A stretch of DNA of 64,000 nucleotides from an uncultured Tateyamaria sp. GTDB taxonomy: Bacteria > Pseudomonadota > Alphaproteobacteria > Rhodobacterales > Rhodobacteraceae. Position 1 is the stretch's first letter. Each line of letters opens with the position of its first letter. Shown here in pieces: positions 24,696 to 45,999 of this stretch. A program made the translations under genes and the position numbers. The notes beneath the pieces were generated by a model. The model was not told the origin of the DNA, made no database searches, and saw nothing but the letters and a program-made list of their open reading frames with translations. Location: the NCBI RefSeq assembly GCF_947494755.1, contig NZ_CANLVZ010000007.1, positions 1 to 64,000 on the forward strand. Direction: 5' to 3'.

Positions 24696-24798
24696 AACCA
24701 CTGCTCCGTTCTTGCGACGTGTTGAAATCAGCTTACCGCAGCAGCTCAATTAACCCCAACCCTTTTCGCTCGGGGTTTCATCGCCTATGAGGCACCCT

Positions 24799-26172
24799 AT
24801 GAGCACCAACCCACCAGACCTTCGCCCCGACCTTGCCCCAAAGGCCCAACTGAAACGCAATGACCGCCCCGGTCAGCCGACCATCGGGATGGTCAGCCTG
24901 GGCTGTCCCAAGGCGCTGGTGGACAGTGAACGCATCCTCACCCGGCTGCGCGCCGAAGGGTACGGGATTTCGCCCGACTATAGCGGGGCCGATGCGGTGA
25001 TCGTGAACACCTGCGGGTTTCTCGACAGTGCCAAGGCCGAAAGCCTTGAGGCGATTGGCGAGGCGTTAGCTGAAAACGGGCGGGTGATTGTGACGGGATG
25101 CCTCGGGGCCGAACCCGACTATATCACCGGGGCCCATCCAAAGGTGCTGGCCGTGACCGGGCCGCATCAATACGAACAGGTGCTCGATGCGGTACATGCC
25201 GCTGTGCCACCGGACCCCGATCCGTTTGTCGATCTGTTACCTGCGCGCGGGATCAGCCTGACGCCGCGCCATTTCAGCTATCTCAAGATTTCCGAGGGCT
25301 GCAATCACAAGTGCAAGTTCTGTATCATCCCCGACATGCGCGGACGGCTGCAATCGCGCCCGGCCCATGCGGTGATGCGCGAGGCGGAAAAACTGGTCGA
25401 GGCAGGCGTGCGCGAGTTGCTTGTCATTTCCCAAGATACCTCGGCGTACGGGGTCGACATCAAACATGCGGAGGATCGCGGCCACCGCGCCCATATCACC
25501 GATCTGGCGCGCGATCTGGGATCGCTCGGGGCTTGGATGCGGTTGCACTACGTCTATCCCTATCCCCATGTGCGCCAGTTGATCCCGCTGATGGCAGATG
25601 GCTTGGTGTTGCCCTATCTCGACATCCCGTTCCAGCACGCGCATCCGGATGTGCTCAAACGCATGGCGCGGCCCGCCGCCGCCGCCAAAACCCTGGACGA
25701 AATCGCCGCATGGCGCGACATCTGCCCCGACCTTACCCTGCGCTCGACCTTCATCGTTGGCTATCCCGGCGAGACAGAGGCGGAATTTCAGACCCTGCTT
25801 GACTGGATGGGCGAGGCAAAACTGGATCGCGTCGGATGTTTTCAGTACGAAAATGTGGACGGGGCACGCTCCAACGCCCTACCCGATCACGTCGCACCCG
25901 AGGTCAAGCAAGAGCGGTGGGAGCGGTTCATGGAAAAAGCCGCCGCTATTTCCGAGGCCAAGCTGGCCGCCAAAATCGGTCAAACCTGCCAGGTGATCGT
26001 GGACGAGGTGGATGGCGAGGCGGCAACCTGCCGCACCAAGGCCGACGCGCCCGAAATCGATGGCAACCTGTTCATCGACGAAGGGTTCGAGAACCTGAGC
26101 CCCGGTGACATCGTGACGGTCCAGGTGGACGAAGCGGGCGATTACGACCTGTGGGGTCGGCTAGTCGTGTGA
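24799..26172 (+). CDS. rimO: Ribosomal protein S12 methylthiotransferase RimO
   Basis: A 457-residue radical-SAM enzyme that adds a methylthio group to the conserved Asp of ribosomal protein S12. It has the N-terminal UPF0004 domain with three cluster Cys (SLGCPK, NTCGF, TGCLG), the radical-SAM motif CNHKCKFC (about residue 170) and a C-terminal TRAM domain. ATG 24799 follows GAGG at a good distance; ATG 24787 would add four residues. Divergently transcribed from the AsmA gene. Confidence 0.96.
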
Positions 26173-26228: not shown

Positions 26229-26244
26229 TTAAAGGTGCGTTAAC
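26229..26244 (+). promoter_or_regulatory. CtrA-type box upstream of the SOS-like small gene
   Basis: TTAA, seven bases (AGGTGCG), then TTAAC: an exact match to the CtrA consensus TTAA-N7-TTAAC. It ends 7 bp before the -35 element at 26252. Two more exact matches stand beside luxI (45021) and upstream of the luxR unit (45984). Confidence 0.65.
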
Positions 26245-26251
26245 CAAACCC

Positions 26252-26280
26252 TTGCAAAGACGCCCTCAGTGTTCTATGTT
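26252..26280 (+). promoter_or_regulatory. Sigma-70-type promoter of the small two-module gene
   Basis: TTGCAA at 26252-26257, a 17-bp spacer, and TATGTT at 26275-26280. The -10 lies inside the LexA-type box, and the start codon is 30 bp downstream with GAGAACGGAGC as ribosome-binding region. Confidence 0.6.
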
Positions 26281-26285
26281 TGTTC
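26271..26285 (+). promoter_or_regulatory. LexA-type SOS box
   Basis: GTTC, seven bases (TATGTTT), GTTC: the direct-repeat LexA site known in alphaproteobacteria such as Rhodobacter. It covers the -10 box, an ideal place for repression. The bases that follow form a second feature, GTTCTCT-CGCA-AGAGAAC (26282-26299), a perfect 7-bp-arm dyad sharing its first GTTC with the box. Confidence 0.65.
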
Positions 26286-26310
26286 TCTCGCAAGAGAACG
26301 GAGCACGCAT

Positions 26311-26667
26311 ATGTCCTACCACTCGTATCAGCCCGGCCTTTTCGACCCTGCCCAGGGGGCGCTGCCCATCGGTGCGCCCGACACAGCGCCCGCGACGGAA
26401 AAGCAGATCGCGTTCGCGCGCAGCCTCGCGGCCAAGACGGGGGTCAAACTGCCCGCTCACCTGCTGCGGGACAAGGCGGGTCTGTCGGCGTGGATTGATC
26501 AAACAAAAGCGGCCGTGCCCGCCTCGCGGTTCTCCAACTATCCAAGCGCGAAGCAGGTGCAATTTGCCGAACGGATTGCCCGTCTGAAACGCCGGGACAT
26601 TCCGGCGGAGTGTTTCAAGGACAAGGTGATGATGTCGCGCTGGATCGACGGGAACAAACCCCGCTAA
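26311..26667 (+). CDS. Small basic protein with two copies of a KQ..FA..LA module, probably SOS/CtrA controlled
   Basis: A 118-residue soluble protein. Two similar segments can be aligned by eye: TEKQIAFARSLAAKTGVKLP...LSAWID (about residues 28-65) and SAKQVQFAERIARLKRRDIP...MSRWID (about 77-113). Similar short modules occur in phage, plasmid and topoisomerase-type DNA-handling proteins, so DNA binding is a reasonable guess, not proof. Start ATG 26311 follows GGAGC and leaves out an in-frame extension lying in the promoter. The promoter carries an exact CtrA box and an exact LexA box. I do not recognise a named family. Confidence 0.75.
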   Translation: MSYHSYQPGLFDPAQGALPIGAPDTAPATEKQIAFARSLAAKTGVKLPAHLLRDKAGLSAWIDQTKAAVPASRFSNYPSAKQVQFAERIARLKRRDIPAECFKDKVMMSRWIDGNKPR

Positions 26668-26720
26668 GGTGCGGCGGTTTGCCCCCTGTGGATGGGGCCG
26701 CGCACCGCTATCTTTCGAAC

Positions 26721-27113
26721 ATGATCGATGAAACCCGCGTTCTTTACAATGCCGACTGCCCTGTGTGCAGCTTCGAGATTGATCACTATGCCAAGTATAG
26801 TGACGAAACCGGGCTGCCCATCACATTCGAGGATCTCAACACCGAGGATACCGCCGCCTGGGGCATGACATCGGACGAAGCTGCGCGACGGCTCTATGTG
26901 CGCAAAGGCGGACAGACCTATTCCGGTATCCCGGCCTTCATCGTGCTGTGGCAGGACATGCCGCGATATCGCTGGCTGGCCCGGCTCGTGTCGCTCCCGG
27001 GCTTTCACTGGGCCGCCTCAAAACTCTACGACGACGTGGCCGCGCCGCTGATTTATCGCTGGCATCTGCGCCGGCAGGCTCGCGCGACGTCACCTGCACC
27101 CTCGCGCAATTGA
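26721..27113 (+). CDS. DCC-family (DUF393) thiol-disulfide protein
   Basis: A 130-residue protein of the DUF393/DCC family, predicted thiol-disulfide oxidoreductases. The N-terminal LYNADCPVCSFEI holds the DCPxC redox motif (residues about 11-15). The central RLYVRKGGQTYSGIPAFIVLW and C-terminal YRWLARLVSLPG are family blocks. Start ATG 26721 was chosen over in-frame extension into the preceding gap. It lies 53 bp after the small two-module gene. Function not established; possible membrane-associated redox partner. Confidence 0.82.
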   Translation: MIDETRVLYNADCPVCSFEIDHYAKYSDETGLPITFEDLNTEDTAAWGMTSDEAARRLYVRKGGQTYSGIPAFIVLWQDMPRYRWLARLVSLPGFHWAASKLYDDVAAPLIYRWHLRRQARATSPAPSRN

Positions 27114-27152: not shown

Positions 27153-27785
27153 ATGGCCTATCCCTATTCCACGCCTGAAACGCTGGCGGATGCTGGCGTG
27201 CATCTGATCAGCCTTGTGGCTGCCACTGGCGCGGGTGTGCTGCTGATCCTTTATGTCAGCCAGACCCATGGCGCACCGCAGATCGCGGCCACCAGCATCT
27301 ACGCGACGTTCCTGATTTTTTCGTTGCTGGCCTCGACCGCCTATCACCTTCTGCCGTGGGATCGCAGCCGCCCGATCTTTCACCGGATTGATCACGCGGC
27401 AATTTACCTCAAGATCGCAGGAACTTACACGCCGCTGGTGGTTCTGATCGGGTCGGCCTTTGCCTATGCGGTGCTGGCCGGGGTCTGGTTGGTGGCACTG
27501 TTCGGGGCGCTGGCCAAGCTCAGCTTTTGGGCGACGGACGCGCGCGGCTCGCTGGCCTTGTATCTCGCAATGGGCTGGGCAAGCGTGCTGCTGATTTGGC
27601 CGATGTGGCAGGCGCTGCCTGCATCCGCCGTCGCGTTGATCGCAGCGGGCGGGCTGCTTTACACCATGGGAACCGTATTTTTCGCGCGCGACAGTCTGCG
27701 CTTTCAGAACGCGATCTGGCATAGTTTCGTGCTGGCGGCGTCGGCCTGTTTTTTCGGCGCGGTGTCTTTGGGGGTGTCAGCCTAG
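27153..27785 (+). CDS. Hemolysin III/PAQR-family membrane protein
   Basis: A 210-residue seven-helix membrane protein of the hemolysin III (YqfA/PAQR) family. The conserved metal/catalytic residues are visible: Ser and His in LLASTAYHLLP (about residue 58), Asp and His in RIDHAAIY (about 77) and the late His in AIWHSF (about 190). Animal PAQR receptors have ceramidase-like activity; the role of bacterial members is unclear. The last 9 bp overlap the convergent DUF6455 gene. Confidence 0.88.
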   Translation: MAYPYSTPETLADAGVHLISLVAATGAGVLLILYVSQTHGAPQIAATSIYATFLIFSLLASTAYHLLPWDRSRPIFHRIDHAAIYLKIAGTYTPLVVLIGSAFAYAVLAGVWLVALFGALAKLSFWATDARGSLALYLAMGWASVLLIWPMWQALPASAVALIAAGGLLYTMGTVFFARDSLRFQNAIWHSFVLAASACFFGAVSLGVSA

Positions 27786-31645: not shown

Positions 31646-33742
31646 CTAGGCCACCGCATCAAGCGCCCGCAGCGTGTCGGGCAGCGTGCAAAAGCGCGCA
31701 ACTGGATGCACCGTCGGGCCGTAGGCCTGCACAACGCCATGCCTGCCAAGATCAGGCAGCAGCCGGCAAAGCGCTTGCATATTCTCCGTTCCGACTGACA
31801 TCAGCCCCCACGCGCCCGGATAAAAACTTTCGCTGGCGAGGCCATCGGTCATGATCAGGTCGTGGCTGTCGAGCAGAAGGTGGACATAGGTGACCGACTG
31901 CACCCCGCTGGCCTTGCGCACCTGCCCCCCGTGCAGACGCGCCAGATGACCGGCGCGCACCAGGACGCAGGACCCGGCTTCGTCCCGATGGCCGAGCGCA
32001 AGGGCGTGTTGCGAGGACACCCGGATATCAACGGTGTTGCCAAAGGCCCCGGCTGCAATATGGACAGGGCGCAGCATCGGATTGGCGTTCAGCGCGCGGG
32101 CGTCCAGATGGCGTTGGCCGACCCATCGCACCTCGCGCAGCCCATTGTCGCGCGTCTGCACGAGATCGCCGACGCGCAGAGTTTCCACAGGCACCCGCCC
32201 CCACGCAGTCTGCACAAATGTACCCCCGGTAAAGCAGGGGATGCCCGCCGCGTTCAACTGTTCGGTCGAGGACATTTGCGCGGCACTGACGCCTTGGAGC
32301 GTGATGGTTTCTCCTTCGGGAAATGTCAGAACAGCGTTGCCGCTGCCATCTTCGGACACGATGACATCCTGCGCCCGCACCGACTTGCCATCGAGCGTGC
32401 GCAGCTCCGAGACATCGAGTTGATCGTTGTAAATCCCATCCGCGTCCGCATCGCCGGTGTCGAAATCCGTGACAAAGGTGTGCCCGTCCTGGCTTTGGAC
32501 AAAGGTGTCGTCACCCGCGCCACCCGTAGCCGTATCGCTGCCTGACCCGGTCTCGATGCGGTCATTGCCGTCGCCGCCGTCCAGTTGGTCGTTTCCAGCA
32601 CCGCCGCGCAGGGTGTCGTCACCCGCCCCGCCATCAATCAGGTCATCGCCGTCGCCACCGGACAGGCTGTCATTTTCTGCACCCCCGTAAATTGCGTCGT
32701 TGCCTGCGCCACCATCAACGGTGTCATTGCCCGCGCCGCCGAATATGAGGTCGTTGTCATCGCCCCCCGAAACGAAGTCGTTGCCATCCTCGCCATAGAT
32801 CGTGTCGTTGCCGATGCCCCCATCCAGCGTATCATCACCCGCGCCGCCGCGCATCGAGTCCTCGCCCGACCCGCCCGACACGTCGTCATTGCCGTGATCA
32901 CCATGCAGGGTGTCGCTGCCGCCTCCCCCCACAAGCGTGTCGTCATCCGCCCCGCCATAGACCGCATCGGCACCTTCACCGCCGCTGGCATAGTCACGGC
33001 CCTCGCCTGCAAAGATCGTGTCGTCGCCATCCTGGCCCAGAATCGTGTCGTTGCCGGACTGGCCGTGCAACTCGTCGTTGCCTATGCCGCCCTCAATGTA
33101 GTCGTCACCATTGCCGCCCCGGACGGTATCGTCGCCCGCCCCTGCATAGATGGTGTCGTTGCCCTCTCCGCCGGACACGGAGTCATTGCCATCCCCGGTG
33201 CTGACGTAATCGGCCCCATCTCGGGCGTCGACTGTGTCGTTGCCCGCCCCCGTAACAAAGTTGTCCTGATAACTGCTGCCTGTATAGTTATTGGCATCAT
33301 CCGGGTCGTCCGTGGGTGCCACCAGAGAATCATAGCGGGGTGCATTATCTGCCGTGACATTGTTTGGGCCTGAATAGGTCCATGCCTTGCCGGGCGTGAT
33401 CACTCCGTCCGCAACCCATCCCGAATGGGCCCCGGCGCTTTCGACCTTGTAAAGCGTGACGGTGTTGCCCTGCCCGTCCGTCAGCGTCCAGCTTTCCTCG
33501 AGATAAACCTGGCCTTCGGAAACCTGATTACCATTTGCATCGAATTTGCGGGCATACTGATCTTCGTCACCGACTTCGTCGTTGGCATCGTCCCCATTGA
33601 ACAGCACACCGCCATCCGATTCCTCGATCTCGTAGCGCAGCGTATCCTCGCTGGCGTCGAAATTTGGATCCAGGATCAGTTTGCCTTCGGGCGTGGTGAA
33701 AAAGGCGTTCTGGGCGTAGCCGACGACGGTGTAGTTGGCCAT
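31646..33742 (-). CDS. Secreted RTX calcium-binding protein with Hint domain
   Basis: A 698-residue acidic protein in three parts: an N-terminal region (about 1-155) starting MANYTVVGYAQ; more than twenty GGxGxDxxx RTX nonapeptides (about 160-420), which fold as Ca2+-bound beta-rolls; and a C-terminal Hint_2 domain starting at C503 (PCFTGGTFVQT, then VPVETLRVGDLVQT). There is no signal peptide; RTX proteins leave by type I secretion. The Hint domain resembles hedgehog/intein autoprocessing modules and a Cys-initiated cleavage is possible. No ABC/MFP secretion genes are adjacent. Confidence 0.92.
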   Translation of the reverse strand: MANYTVVGYAQNAFFTTPEGKLILDPNFDASEDTLRYEIEESDGGVLFNGDDANDEVGDEDQYARKFDANGNQVSEGQVYLEESWTLTDGQGNTVTLYKVESAGAHSGWVADGVITPGKAWTYSGPNNVTADNAPRYDSLVAPTDDPDDANNYTGSSYQDNFVTGAGNDTVDARDGADYVSTGDGNDSVSGGEGNDTIYAGAGDDTVRGGNGDDYIEGGIGNDELHGQSGNDTILGQDGDDTIFAGEGRDYASGGEGADAVYGGADDDTLVGGGGSDTLHGDHGNDDVSGGSGEDSMRGGAGDDTLDGGIGNDTIYGEDGNDFVSGGDDNDLIFGGAGNDTVDGGAGNDAIYGGAENDSLSGGDGDDLIDGGAGDDTLRGGAGNDQLDGGDGNDRIETGSGSDTATGGAGDDTFVQSQDGHTFVTDFDTGDADADGIYNDQLDVSELRTLDGKSVRAQDVIVSEDGSGNAVLTFPEGETITLQGVSAAQMSSTEQLNAAGIPCFTGGTFVQTAWGRVPVETLRVGDLVQTRDNGLREVRWVGQRHLDARALNANPMLRPVHIAAGAFGNTVDIRVSSQHALALGHRDEAGSCVLVRAGHLARLHGGQVRKASGVQSVTYVHLLLDSHDLIMTDGLASESFYPGAWGLMSVGTENMQALCRLLPDLGRHGVVQAYGPTVHPVARFCTLPDTLRALDAVA

Positions 33743-44338: not shown

Positions 44339-44974
44339 TTAGGCTGTGCGGGCGAAGCGTGCCGCGTCGATTGTCCCAAAGGCACGATCGAACCACTGGC
44401 GCGAGAGCTCCATTGGGACACCGGCGCGTTCGGCCACTTTGGCGGCGGCCCCTTGCTCGAAATGCCACAGCCCGACGCTGATCTGATCGCGGCCCGAGCC
44501 TGCGCTGCCCAGCACCTCGGGGGAAGAGCCGATCATCCGGTAAATGCGGACCATGCGCGCATCAAAGACCCCTACGAAATGTTCGACACCAAAATTCTGC
44601 ATGATTTCGCCGCCGCCCAGCATCAACGCGGCGGCCACGTGGCTGCCCGCGCCGCGCGTCAGGCAAAACCGGGTGCATTCCCAAATGGCCGGGCTGGTAA
44701 TGGGGCCAGAGATCAGATCGCCAAAGTGTTCGTTCACCATGGTGCGTCCGGTCGTTGGCAGAAACCGCATGGATCCGCCATGGCTGCCGTCAGGTTCTTC
44801 CCACATCACATACAATGGGTTCAGGTCGTCATATTCATCACGCTCACACCCATCAGCGTCGATGCTGACATCCCAACCAAGACGGATTTTGAACTGATCC
44901 GCCCGGTCGCGAAACATCGTGCGGGCAAGTTTTGGGTGATCGACCAAGTCAGAGGCATAAAGATAGCGCAGCAT
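44339..44974 (-). CDS. Acyl-homoserine-lactone synthase (LuxI family)
   Basis: A 211-residue LuxI-type autoinducer synthase that makes acyl-homoserine lactone from SAM and acyl-ACP. The invariant N-terminal residues are present in MFRDRADQFKIRLGWD (Arg, Phe, Trp) and ERDEYDDLNPLYV (Asp pair), then GGSMRFLPTTGRTM and AIWECTRFCL. Length is usual. The luxR gene ends 113 bp upstream on the same strand. A CtrA-type box lies 47-62 bp before the start, and AAGGGATCC serves as ribosome-binding region. Signal chain length cannot be predicted. Confidence 0.94.
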   Translation of the reverse strand: MLRYLYASDLVDHPKLARTMFRDRADQFKIRLGWDVSIDADGCERDEYDDLNPLYVMWEEPDGSHGGSMRFLPTTGRTMVNEHFGDLISGPITSPAIWECTRFCLTRGAGSHVAAALMLGGGEIMQNFGVEHFVGVFDARMVRIYRMIGSSPEVLGSAGSGRDQISVGLWHFEQGAAAKVAERAGVPMELSRQWFDRAFGTIDAARFARTA

Positions 44975-45020: not shown

Positions 45021-45036
45021 TTAAACGTGCGTTAAC
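45021..45036 (+). promoter_or_regulatory. CtrA-type box upstream of luxI
   Basis: TTAA, ACGTGCG, TTAAC: exact match to TTAA-N7-TTAAC. luxI is on the minus strand and begins 47 bp away; a CATACC-like -10 lies about 12 bp past the box in the direction of luxI. This spacing suits activation from the -35 region. Confidence 0.65.
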
Positions 45037-45087: not shown

Positions 45088-45819
45088 TCAGACGACAATC
45101 AGCCCCCGACTCATCGCCCGGGCGACGGCGTGGGTTGTGTTCATCGCACCCAGTTTGAAGCGGGCGCTTTCGATATAGACGCGCAAGGTATGCTCGGAAA
45201 TGGCGAGCGTATCAGCGACTTGGGCGCGGCTGTATCCCATCGCCAGGAAGGTCATCGCATCGACCTCGCGCGGGCTGAGGGCCTGGGGTTGCTCGGGCGT
45301 CCTCTCTGGTTCGAAATCAAGGGCCTTTTCGTTGAAGTAGTGGGCGATGAGGATCAGGTCGCGGCGGTGGGCATCTGTCCAGGCGGCCCAGGTGTCGTCA
45401 TCGCAGGAGTGGCTGACGGTGAAAAGTGCGAACTGGCCGTTCGGGCCCCGGATCGGCACCGAGAACCCCTGGTTCCCGACCCCGTGTGATATGGCCTCGG
45501 CCTGAAAGGCGCGGGCGGCTTTGCTCGACCAGTCGAGCCGTTTCCAATCAACGGGATGAAACCTTTGAAAACAGCCAAGAATAACCGGATCGACGCGGAG
45601 GTAATTCTGCTCGAGATAACGATCGCGCCACGCGTCTGAGTATGTGCCGCACCCGTACTGCGCTCCGGCGGAATCGACCCAGTGATAGATGACGTGGCCA
45701 ACCGAATAGTGGCTTTGGATAGCCTCAGTTGCGGCCTGTAATGCGCCCAGCCCTTCAGCTGTTTCCAAATCCCCCAAAATAACTTCCAACGGCTGCCTCG
45801 CCGTCGTGACGCTGACCAT
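45088..45819 (-). CDS. LuxR-family autoinducer-binding transcription regulator
   Basis: A 243-residue quorum-sensing regulator. The N-terminal autoinducer-binding domain keeps the usual residues in VIYHWV, YLEQNYLRVDPVI (Tyr, Asp, Pro) and GFSVPIRGPNGQFALFTVS. The C-terminal GerE helix-turn-helix is LSPREVDAMTFLAMGYS through LAISEHTLRVYIESAR. It lies upstream of luxI on the same strand. A 68-codon gene overlaps its first 65 bp, so luxR may be translated by coupling. The MVSVTTARQ start is the first plausible Met. Confidence 0.93.
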   Translation of the reverse strand: MVSVTTARQPLEVILGDLETAEGLGALQAATEAIQSHYSVGHVIYHWVDSAGAQYGCGTYSDAWRDRYLEQNYLRVDPVILGCFQRFHPVDWKRLDWSSKAARAFQAEAISHGVGNQGFSVPIRGPNGQFALFTVSHSCDDDTWAAWTDAHRRDLILIAHYFNEKALDFEPERTPEQPQALSPREVDAMTFLAMGYSRAQVADTLAISEHTLRVYIESARFKLGAMNTTHAVARAMSRGLIVV

Positions 45820-45983: not shown

Positions 45984-45999
45984 TTAATGAATCGTTAAC
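45984..45999. promoter_or_regulatory. CtrA-type box upstream of the luxR unit
   Basis: GTTAA-TGAATCG-TTAAC: an exact TTAA-N7-TTAAC match that reads as the consensus on both strands (45983-45999 including the outer G). It lies 23 bp upstream of the small gene preceding luxR. A TATAGT -10 candidate (minus strand, 46008-46003) is just upstream, so here the box sits near the transcription start. Confidence 0.65.

Follow-up and report, generated by a model that had tools for sequence, protein, structure and literature searches.

Here, we describe a small gene of an uncultured Tateyamaria species whose product, a protein of 118 residues, is built of two copies of a module with homology to repeats at the C-terminus of plasmid-encoded type IA topoisomerases, and whose promoter is covered by a LexA box that is retained in almost all relatives. 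Taken together, these features are best explained by a LexA-repressed, non-catalytic DNA-repair adaptor built of topoisomerase repeats, a reading to which we assign a probability of roughly 0.55. At the level of sequence, the LexA-type operator, the module homology and the gene order are established.

The gene and its promoter

The analysed stretch of DNA, hereafter the window, comprises 64 kb from a genome of 4.1 Mb; the features of the gene region are collected in Table 1. The frame behaves as coding, since a comparison with an orthologue of 92% identity yields 22 silent against 10 non-silent codon differences, and third codon positions hold 23 of the 35 base changes. A GTG start at 26269, which would give 132 residues, was rejected because it would place the LexA box within the gene and because the orthologues start at the same MSYH/MSIH.

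Table 1. Features of the gene region, in positions of the window
Feature	Positions	Strand	Remarks
rimO-type gene (our assignment)	24787–26172	+	Syntenic upstream neighbour
CtrA-type box TTAAAGGTGCGTTAA	26229–26243	+	Exact TTAA-N7-TTAA; lineage-specific; centre about 51 bp upstream of the inferred start of transcription
-35 hexamer TTGCAA	26252–26257	+	Inferred; read by eye from the sequence
LexA (SOS) box GTTCTATGTTTGTTC	26271–26285	+	Exact GTTC-N7-GTTC over the promoter; exact box in 79/80 relatives
-10 hexamer TATGTT	26275–26280	+	Within the LexA box; read by eye from the sequence
Two-module protein, 118 residues	26311–26667	+	Stop included; ATG at 26311, stop at 26665–26667
N-terminal acidic tail, residues 1–26	26311–26388	+	Low confidence; contains QPGLF and QGALPI
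Module 1, residues 27–66	26389–26508	+	Helices 30–43, 49–52 and 55–65
Module 2, residues 76–116	26536–26658	+	More conserved of the two
DCC/DUF393-type gene (our assignment)	26721–27113	+	Syntenic downstream neighbour; ATG at 26721 is the chosen start within ORF 26610–27113
Hemolysin-III-type (hlyIII) membrane protein gene (our assignment)	27153–27785	+	Syntenic neighbour

The stretch from 26172, where the rimO-type gene ends, to the ATG contains, in this order, the CtrA-type box, the -35 hexamer and the LexA box enclosing the -10 hexamer. The coordinates, the 118-residue gene and the 57-bp span from the CtrA-type to the LexA box, as given in the original prediction, are all correct. Regarding the sigma-70 promoter proposed there, both elements are present, 17 bp apart and with the -10 inside the LexA box, but the promoter is weak: a hand count gives 8 of 12 consensus bases, and a scan of the region with a limit of 9 of 12 reported none. 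By eye, a TTG-type -35 also precedes the LexA box in congeners, and TATATT occupies the -10 position in 15 of 18 of them. An inverted repeat, GTTCTCTCGCAAGAGAAC, at 26282–26299 links the second LexA half-site with the ribosome-binding region, and similar GTTCTC...GAGAAC pairs were seen by eye in several congeners. Elsewhere in the window, a 698-residue ORF on the minus strand (31646–33742) carries glycine-aspartate-rich repeats, which we take to be of the RTX type, with a presumably Hint-like C-terminal part.

A fixed chromosomal form and dispersed relatives

The window form of the gene resides at a fixed chromosomal site, in the order rimO, gene, DUF393, hlyIII, and the other forms are dispersed. 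It was found in 18 of 19 congeneric genomes, with DUF393 and hlyIII adjoining in all 18. Among the 80 named loci, 61 share one or more of rimO, DUF393 and hlyIII with the window, a weak DUF393 match in one further locus (L112; 32%, distant) not being counted as synteny. These 61 syntenic relatives and the window group together on one side of a branch supported at 99/99, in an unrooted tree computed from few columns and with an unsettled bootstrap. Across the family, 94 of 394 genomes match at an E-value of 0.001, a few of them only via long ORFs or fragments.

Plasmid-borne relatives occur in Pseudosulfitobacter, Paracoccus, Sulfitobacter and others. At an E-value of 0.01, 159 plasmid records match (76 conjugative, 12 mobilizable and 71 non-mobilizable), many of these being near-copies and some having matched via topoisomerases. 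One copy has VirC2, VirD1 and relaxase genes no more than 6 kb away, and a topoisomerase cousin is located among tra genes. Two plasmid copies (L030 and L036) are oriented divergently from an adjacent large methyltransferase/helicase gene, with a toprim-domain gene close by.

A conserved LexA box over the promoter

The direct repeat GTTC-N7-GTTC is the LexA consensus of alphaproteobacteria. In the host genome, the same type of box lies upstream of recA (GAACACAATGAGAAC), of lexA (GAACGTCCGTAGAAC) and of an ORF of an imuB-dnaE2-type cassette (GAACAAAGAAGGAAC) that we take, from its position, to be imuA-type; because all three carry the same repeat, we regard it as the SOS box of this host. On its own, the repeat is no rarer than chance, with two occurrences in the window against 1.67 expected, so that a single box is commonplace in 64 kb, and the significance of this one lies in its conservation.

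In the 18 congeneric orthologues, drawn from 19 congeneric genomes, an exact box lies over the inferred -10 without exception, starting 35 to 46 bp 5′ of the ATG and reading GTTCTATATTTGTTC in 15 of them; one match (G034/L026, E-value of 0.003) had no readable homologous frame and was left out of the orthologue counts. In a wider set, the best 80 of 473 relatives found in the named genome collection, an exact box lies in the 200 bp upstream of 79, and the remaining one (L098) shows, by eye, a single mismatch. Dinucleotide shuffles for these 80 relatives gave a mean of 0.18 boxes and a maximum of 1. The control upstream regions from the same loci contained the box in 3 of 693 cases, these controls preceding mechanically listed ORFs of at least 150 residues in all six frames, so that many of the regions are not real promoters. 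At one locus (L063), the box precedes a TTG start.

Further support comes from 27 additional loci, taken from among the best-scoring matches in the 394-genome family sample rather than as a random draw, where 26 carry an exact box (L128, L129 and L134 included) and one (L143) has a single mismatch. The congeneric, relative and further-locus sets overlap partly, most Tateyamaria loci coming from the same genomes. Among the named plasmid copies, the box is present in five of six readable ones and absent from that of Octadecabacter arcticus (L029), and one copy (L190) was left out of this count, having no in-frame reading. The relative in Paracoccus denitrificans PD1222, PDEN_RS25350, has a LexA box of its own. 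Several loci (L051, L060, L067, L073 and others) display two overlapping boxes 11 bp apart, that is, three successive GTTC half-sites.

Given this conservation across relatives, a chance box was rejected. LexA control, as originally predicted, is strongly supported by the retention of the box in 18 of 18 congeners and 79 of 80 relatives, and judging from these upstream regions, the gene is very probably LexA-controlled and a member of the SOS regulon. In the portion of the D. shibae study drawn on here, predicted LexA sites precede lexA, pde2, flagellar genes, recA, dprA, the GTA cluster and pilus genes, and a small protein of the present kind is not among the predicted targets given in that portion (PMC6473078). 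For a Sulfitobacter host, the SOS genes measured, according to the part of the source used, were recA and lexA (PMC7305329).

The CtrA-type box is confined to single lineages

The exact box is one of three TTAA-N7-TTAA sites in the window, where only 0.05 would be expected. Within 200 bp upstream, however, none of the 18 congeneric orthologues has an exact site and four have one with a single mismatch; the promoter of the orthologue of 92% identity aligns but lacks the box. Farther upstream, exact sites were noted in a single congener genome (L010/L045), at about 400 bp, and at L063, at about 250 bp. CtrA control, proposed alongside LexA control in the original prediction, stands as far as the exact box in this promoter is concerned and fails on its conservation in congeners. 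Conservation of both boxes, suggested there as a check, was accordingly borne out for LexA and not for CtrA.

Within 200 bp, a CtrA-type box occurs in six of the 80 relatives (shuffles 0.19; controls 0/693), all of them Sulfitobacter (L055, L059, L064, L069, L071 and L083), where it starts 29 to 42 bp 5′ of the ATG, downstream of the -10. These six loci are all the members of one branch of the tree, whose support is only 84/91, and they keep the half-sites while the spacer varies. The site may be real in that branch, and its position would suit repression. On the basis of these distributions, a CtrA input to the gene would at best be lineage-specific.

The other two exact CtrA-type boxes of the window, at 45021–45035 and 45984–45998, have downstream of them two minus-strand ORFs (44339–44974 and 45088–45819) that we take to be LuxI-type and LuxR-type, respectively, and thus of a quorum-sensing type; both are plausible CtrA targets.

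No association with the GTA marker

A role in gene transfer agent (GTA) biology had also been suggested. The marker GTA_TIM is present in 346 of the 394 family genomes, compared with 94 that carry the gene, and comparing the genome lists by eye places it in 87 of the 94 carriers and 259 of the 300 non-carriers, which is no association across these 394 genomes (Fisher p = 0.15). A GTA role for the gene is not supported.

Protein architecture and predicted fold

An alignment of 62 relatives resolves into a variable tail and two modules, in agreement with the two-module build originally noticed, residues ~27–66 and 76–116 each forming one predicted three-helix unit. In the AlphaFold2 model, the helices of each unit measure 14, 4 and 11 residues. 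The mean pLDDT is 80.3 for the whole protein and 95.2 for module 2 modelled alone; a pTM of 0.46 leaves the relative orientation of the modules unsettled by the model. The helical fold of the modules is therefore a predicted one. Both modules are basic, with charges of +4.0 and +5.8, and the tail is acidic.

Among solved structures, no significant relative was found by sequence or by fold, and a predicted phage protein of undescribed function matches the fold with an E-value of 1.7e-4. The C-terminal domain of phage Red-beta, which PDB entry titles pair with an SSB peptide and, in other entries, lambda exonuclease, turned up repeatedly near the head of the fold comparisons, but these matches are not significant (best E-values 3.8 and 4.1; rmsd at least 6.5).

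The modules are topoisomerase C-terminal repeats

The original prediction had likened the module to segments of DNA-handling phage and plasmid proteins. For plasmid proteins, the homology is supported and can be specified as the C-terminal repeats of type IA topoisomerases, with E-values of 4e-9 (Phaeobacter), 1e-8 (Variovorax) and 2e-5 (Agrobacterium); the modules of the window protein could be aligned with those at the C-termini of the topoisomerases. The enzymes encoded on Phaeobacter pS26_106, Variovorax PBL-H6 plasmid 2 and Agrobacterium pEL101-131 carry the same ~40-residue module in tandem, whereas the window protein stands alone, is preceded by a LexA box and, in its chromosomal form, has an N-terminal tail. 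Neither a toprim nor a topoisomerase domain was detected by Pfam in its 118 residues.

In 60 plasmid records picked at even steps from 201, the matches fell into 40 hypothetical proteins, 16 annotated DNA topoisomerases and four unannotated ones. Four topoisomerase relatives were examined, of which three are plasmid-borne and one belongs to a prophage. All four have the Pfam topoisomerase domain, with just its final part recognised in two short ones, and each carries between one and three modules at its end. In a congeneric genome, one contig (L028) was seen by eye to carry a topoisomerase-like ORF with terminal modules.

A module profile matched seven of 249 genomes of the phylum, namely four of the host family (the host included), two other alphaproteobacteria and one further off. 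The two host matches are the present gene, those in the other two alphaproteobacteria lie in long ORFs recognised by eye as topoisomerases, and the remaining match is a short ORF. Searches of the host genome with both the protein and the module profile did not convincingly place the module in any other gene, two matches (L002, E-value of 0.02, and L003, E-value of 0.4) having been judged non-homologous from their translations.

Comparison with known families

The window protein has nothing convincing in Pfam, PHROGs or PADLOC and no match in NCBIfam, the NCBIfam scan having covered this protein only. A defence-system scan covered two proteins, and defence systems were set aside as neither matched. 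The repeat is a topoisomerase C-terminal repeat without a convincing curated family among the searches made, and in the literature searched we found no description of the gene or of the module and no functional study of topoisomerase repeats of this type.

Two curated families, Topo_C_ZnRpt (PF01396) and Topo_C_Rpt (PF13368), comprise small repeats arranged in tandem at the C-terminus of type IA topoisomerases, in the part of the source relied on here (PMC9369019). The present repeats share that arrangement, but the window protein lacks the zinc cysteines and the GR(F/Y)GPY motif, its model is all-helical, and neither family was listed for it at E-values up to 10. In one topoisomerase relative (L035), a weak PF01396 match lies outside the modules.

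DUF3072 (PF11272) gives a weak match in 10 of the 62 members (best E-value 2.7e-4), in one of which (L064) it spans residues 31–70 and thus one module; the best member nevertheless scores 21.1 bits where the cut-off is 27.5, and the window protein is not listed. No paper naming DUF3072 was found in the literature searched. TyeA (PF09059), a family with another role, likewise matches 10 of the 62 members weakly, with only L095 passing (21.3 against a cut-off of 21.1 bits). It was rejected because the match crosses both modules out of repeat register and the window protein, at 16.0 bits, is under the cut-off; we take it as a chance likeness between short helices.

YebG, which is under SOS control, and other small SOS proteins of undescribed function are also small and LexA-controlled, but YebG matched none of the 62 members, its sole match being a weak one in a topoisomerase relative (E-value of 0.08). 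Matches to TfoX_N and Arc-like families are weak and erratic among family members. A phage origin was dismissed, with one weak match in 50,697 phage records and none of 69 viral-contig pattern matches confirmed.

The acidic tail and the sliding clamp

Two segments of the tail, QPGLF and QGALPI, resemble in our judgement clamp-binding peptides. Of 81 tails, 34 match the pattern Q-x-[DSAGNT]-[LM]-(F/Y or x-[LIFM]), compared with a mean of 2.4 and a maximum of 11 in 1000 rounds of shuffling, figures that have to be read in the light of a pattern set after the tails had been inspected, non-independent related sequences and one tail (L092) cut too long. The pattern is absent from many Sulfitobacter tails and, by eye, from the short plasmid tails. 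QVSLF-type motifs are known from E. coli clamp binders, and QVSLF itself is contained in the host DnaE1; the host DinB and ImuB do not match the pattern, and DnaE2 does so only via an unlikely stretch. Judged from these motifs, the acidic tail of the chromosomal form might dock to a replisome protein, with the sliding clamp as the best candidate, which we hold to be doubtful.

Discussion

Under the reading that we prefer, LexA bound over the -10 would keep the gene off, and LexA cleavage after DNA damage would switch it on, so that a small basic protein with no recognised catalytic domain would accumulate after damage. In the plasmid type IA topoisomerases, the repeats presumably anchor the enzyme to DNA or to a partner. 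Freed from the enzyme, they would serve as a stand-alone docking adaptor for damaged or single-stranded DNA, or for a protein on it, and the adaptor would help repair or replication restart, possibly with its acidic tail docked to a replisome protein such as the sliding clamp. Induction, DNA binding and a partner of the protein are what we infer here, and the chances that the product is indeed a DNA-repair adaptor appear to us about even. The more elaborate proposal, in which a third type of topoisomerase C-terminal repeat was freed into the SOS response as a clamp-tethered two-module adaptor that brings single-stranded DNA or partners to stalled forks, with plasmids having their own SOS-controlled versions, strikes us as rather improbable in its entirety.

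Considering how many of the relatives are plasmid-borne, the gene could instead be a plasmid accessory gene, a stabilisation or conjugation helper or a modulator of the host SOS response, which one Roseobacter lineage took into its chromosome and whose SOS control benefits the mobile element, not repair. The 159 matching plasmid records, the copy close to VirC2, VirD1 and relaxase genes, the topoisomerase cousin among tra genes and the standing of the chromosomal form as one group amid dispersed forms all speak for it. Nevertheless, the gene is kept in 18 of 19 congeneric genomes, always beside DUF393 and hlyIII, and 61 of the 80 relatives are partly syntenic; the strong protein conservation and fixed neighbourhood imply that the gene now has a host role, and we consider the mobile-element explanation possible but unlikely.

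Two other alternatives seem much less probable still. Dual control by LexA and CtrA, linking the protein to GTA production or competence, would account for an exact CtrA box of a kind that is rare in the window, with its other two sites before quorum-sensing-type ORFs, and for the box that all six members of one Sulfitobacter branch carry elsewhere in the promoter, with a varying spacer, against none of 693 controls. However, not one of the 18 congeners, including that of 92% identity, keeps the box within 200 bp, it occurs in six of the 80 relatives overall, and there is no association with the GTA marker, all of which makes this linkage very hard to sustain. The module homology would also suit a LexA-regulated topoisomerase modulator, whose free repeats compete with the enzyme or recruit it, but as the host genome contains no other convincing module carrier, no cognate topoisomerase of that type was seen, and we give this modulator a slim chance.

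The preferred reading, that of a LexA-repressed repair adaptor, would extend the predicted SOS regulon of the ecologically important marine Roseobacter-type bacteria by a well-conserved, uncharacterised gene, and the concrete domain homology supplies a hypothesis for how this gene may act. With PDEN_RS25350 of Paracoccus denitrificans PD1222, the gene becomes testable in a laboratory strain.
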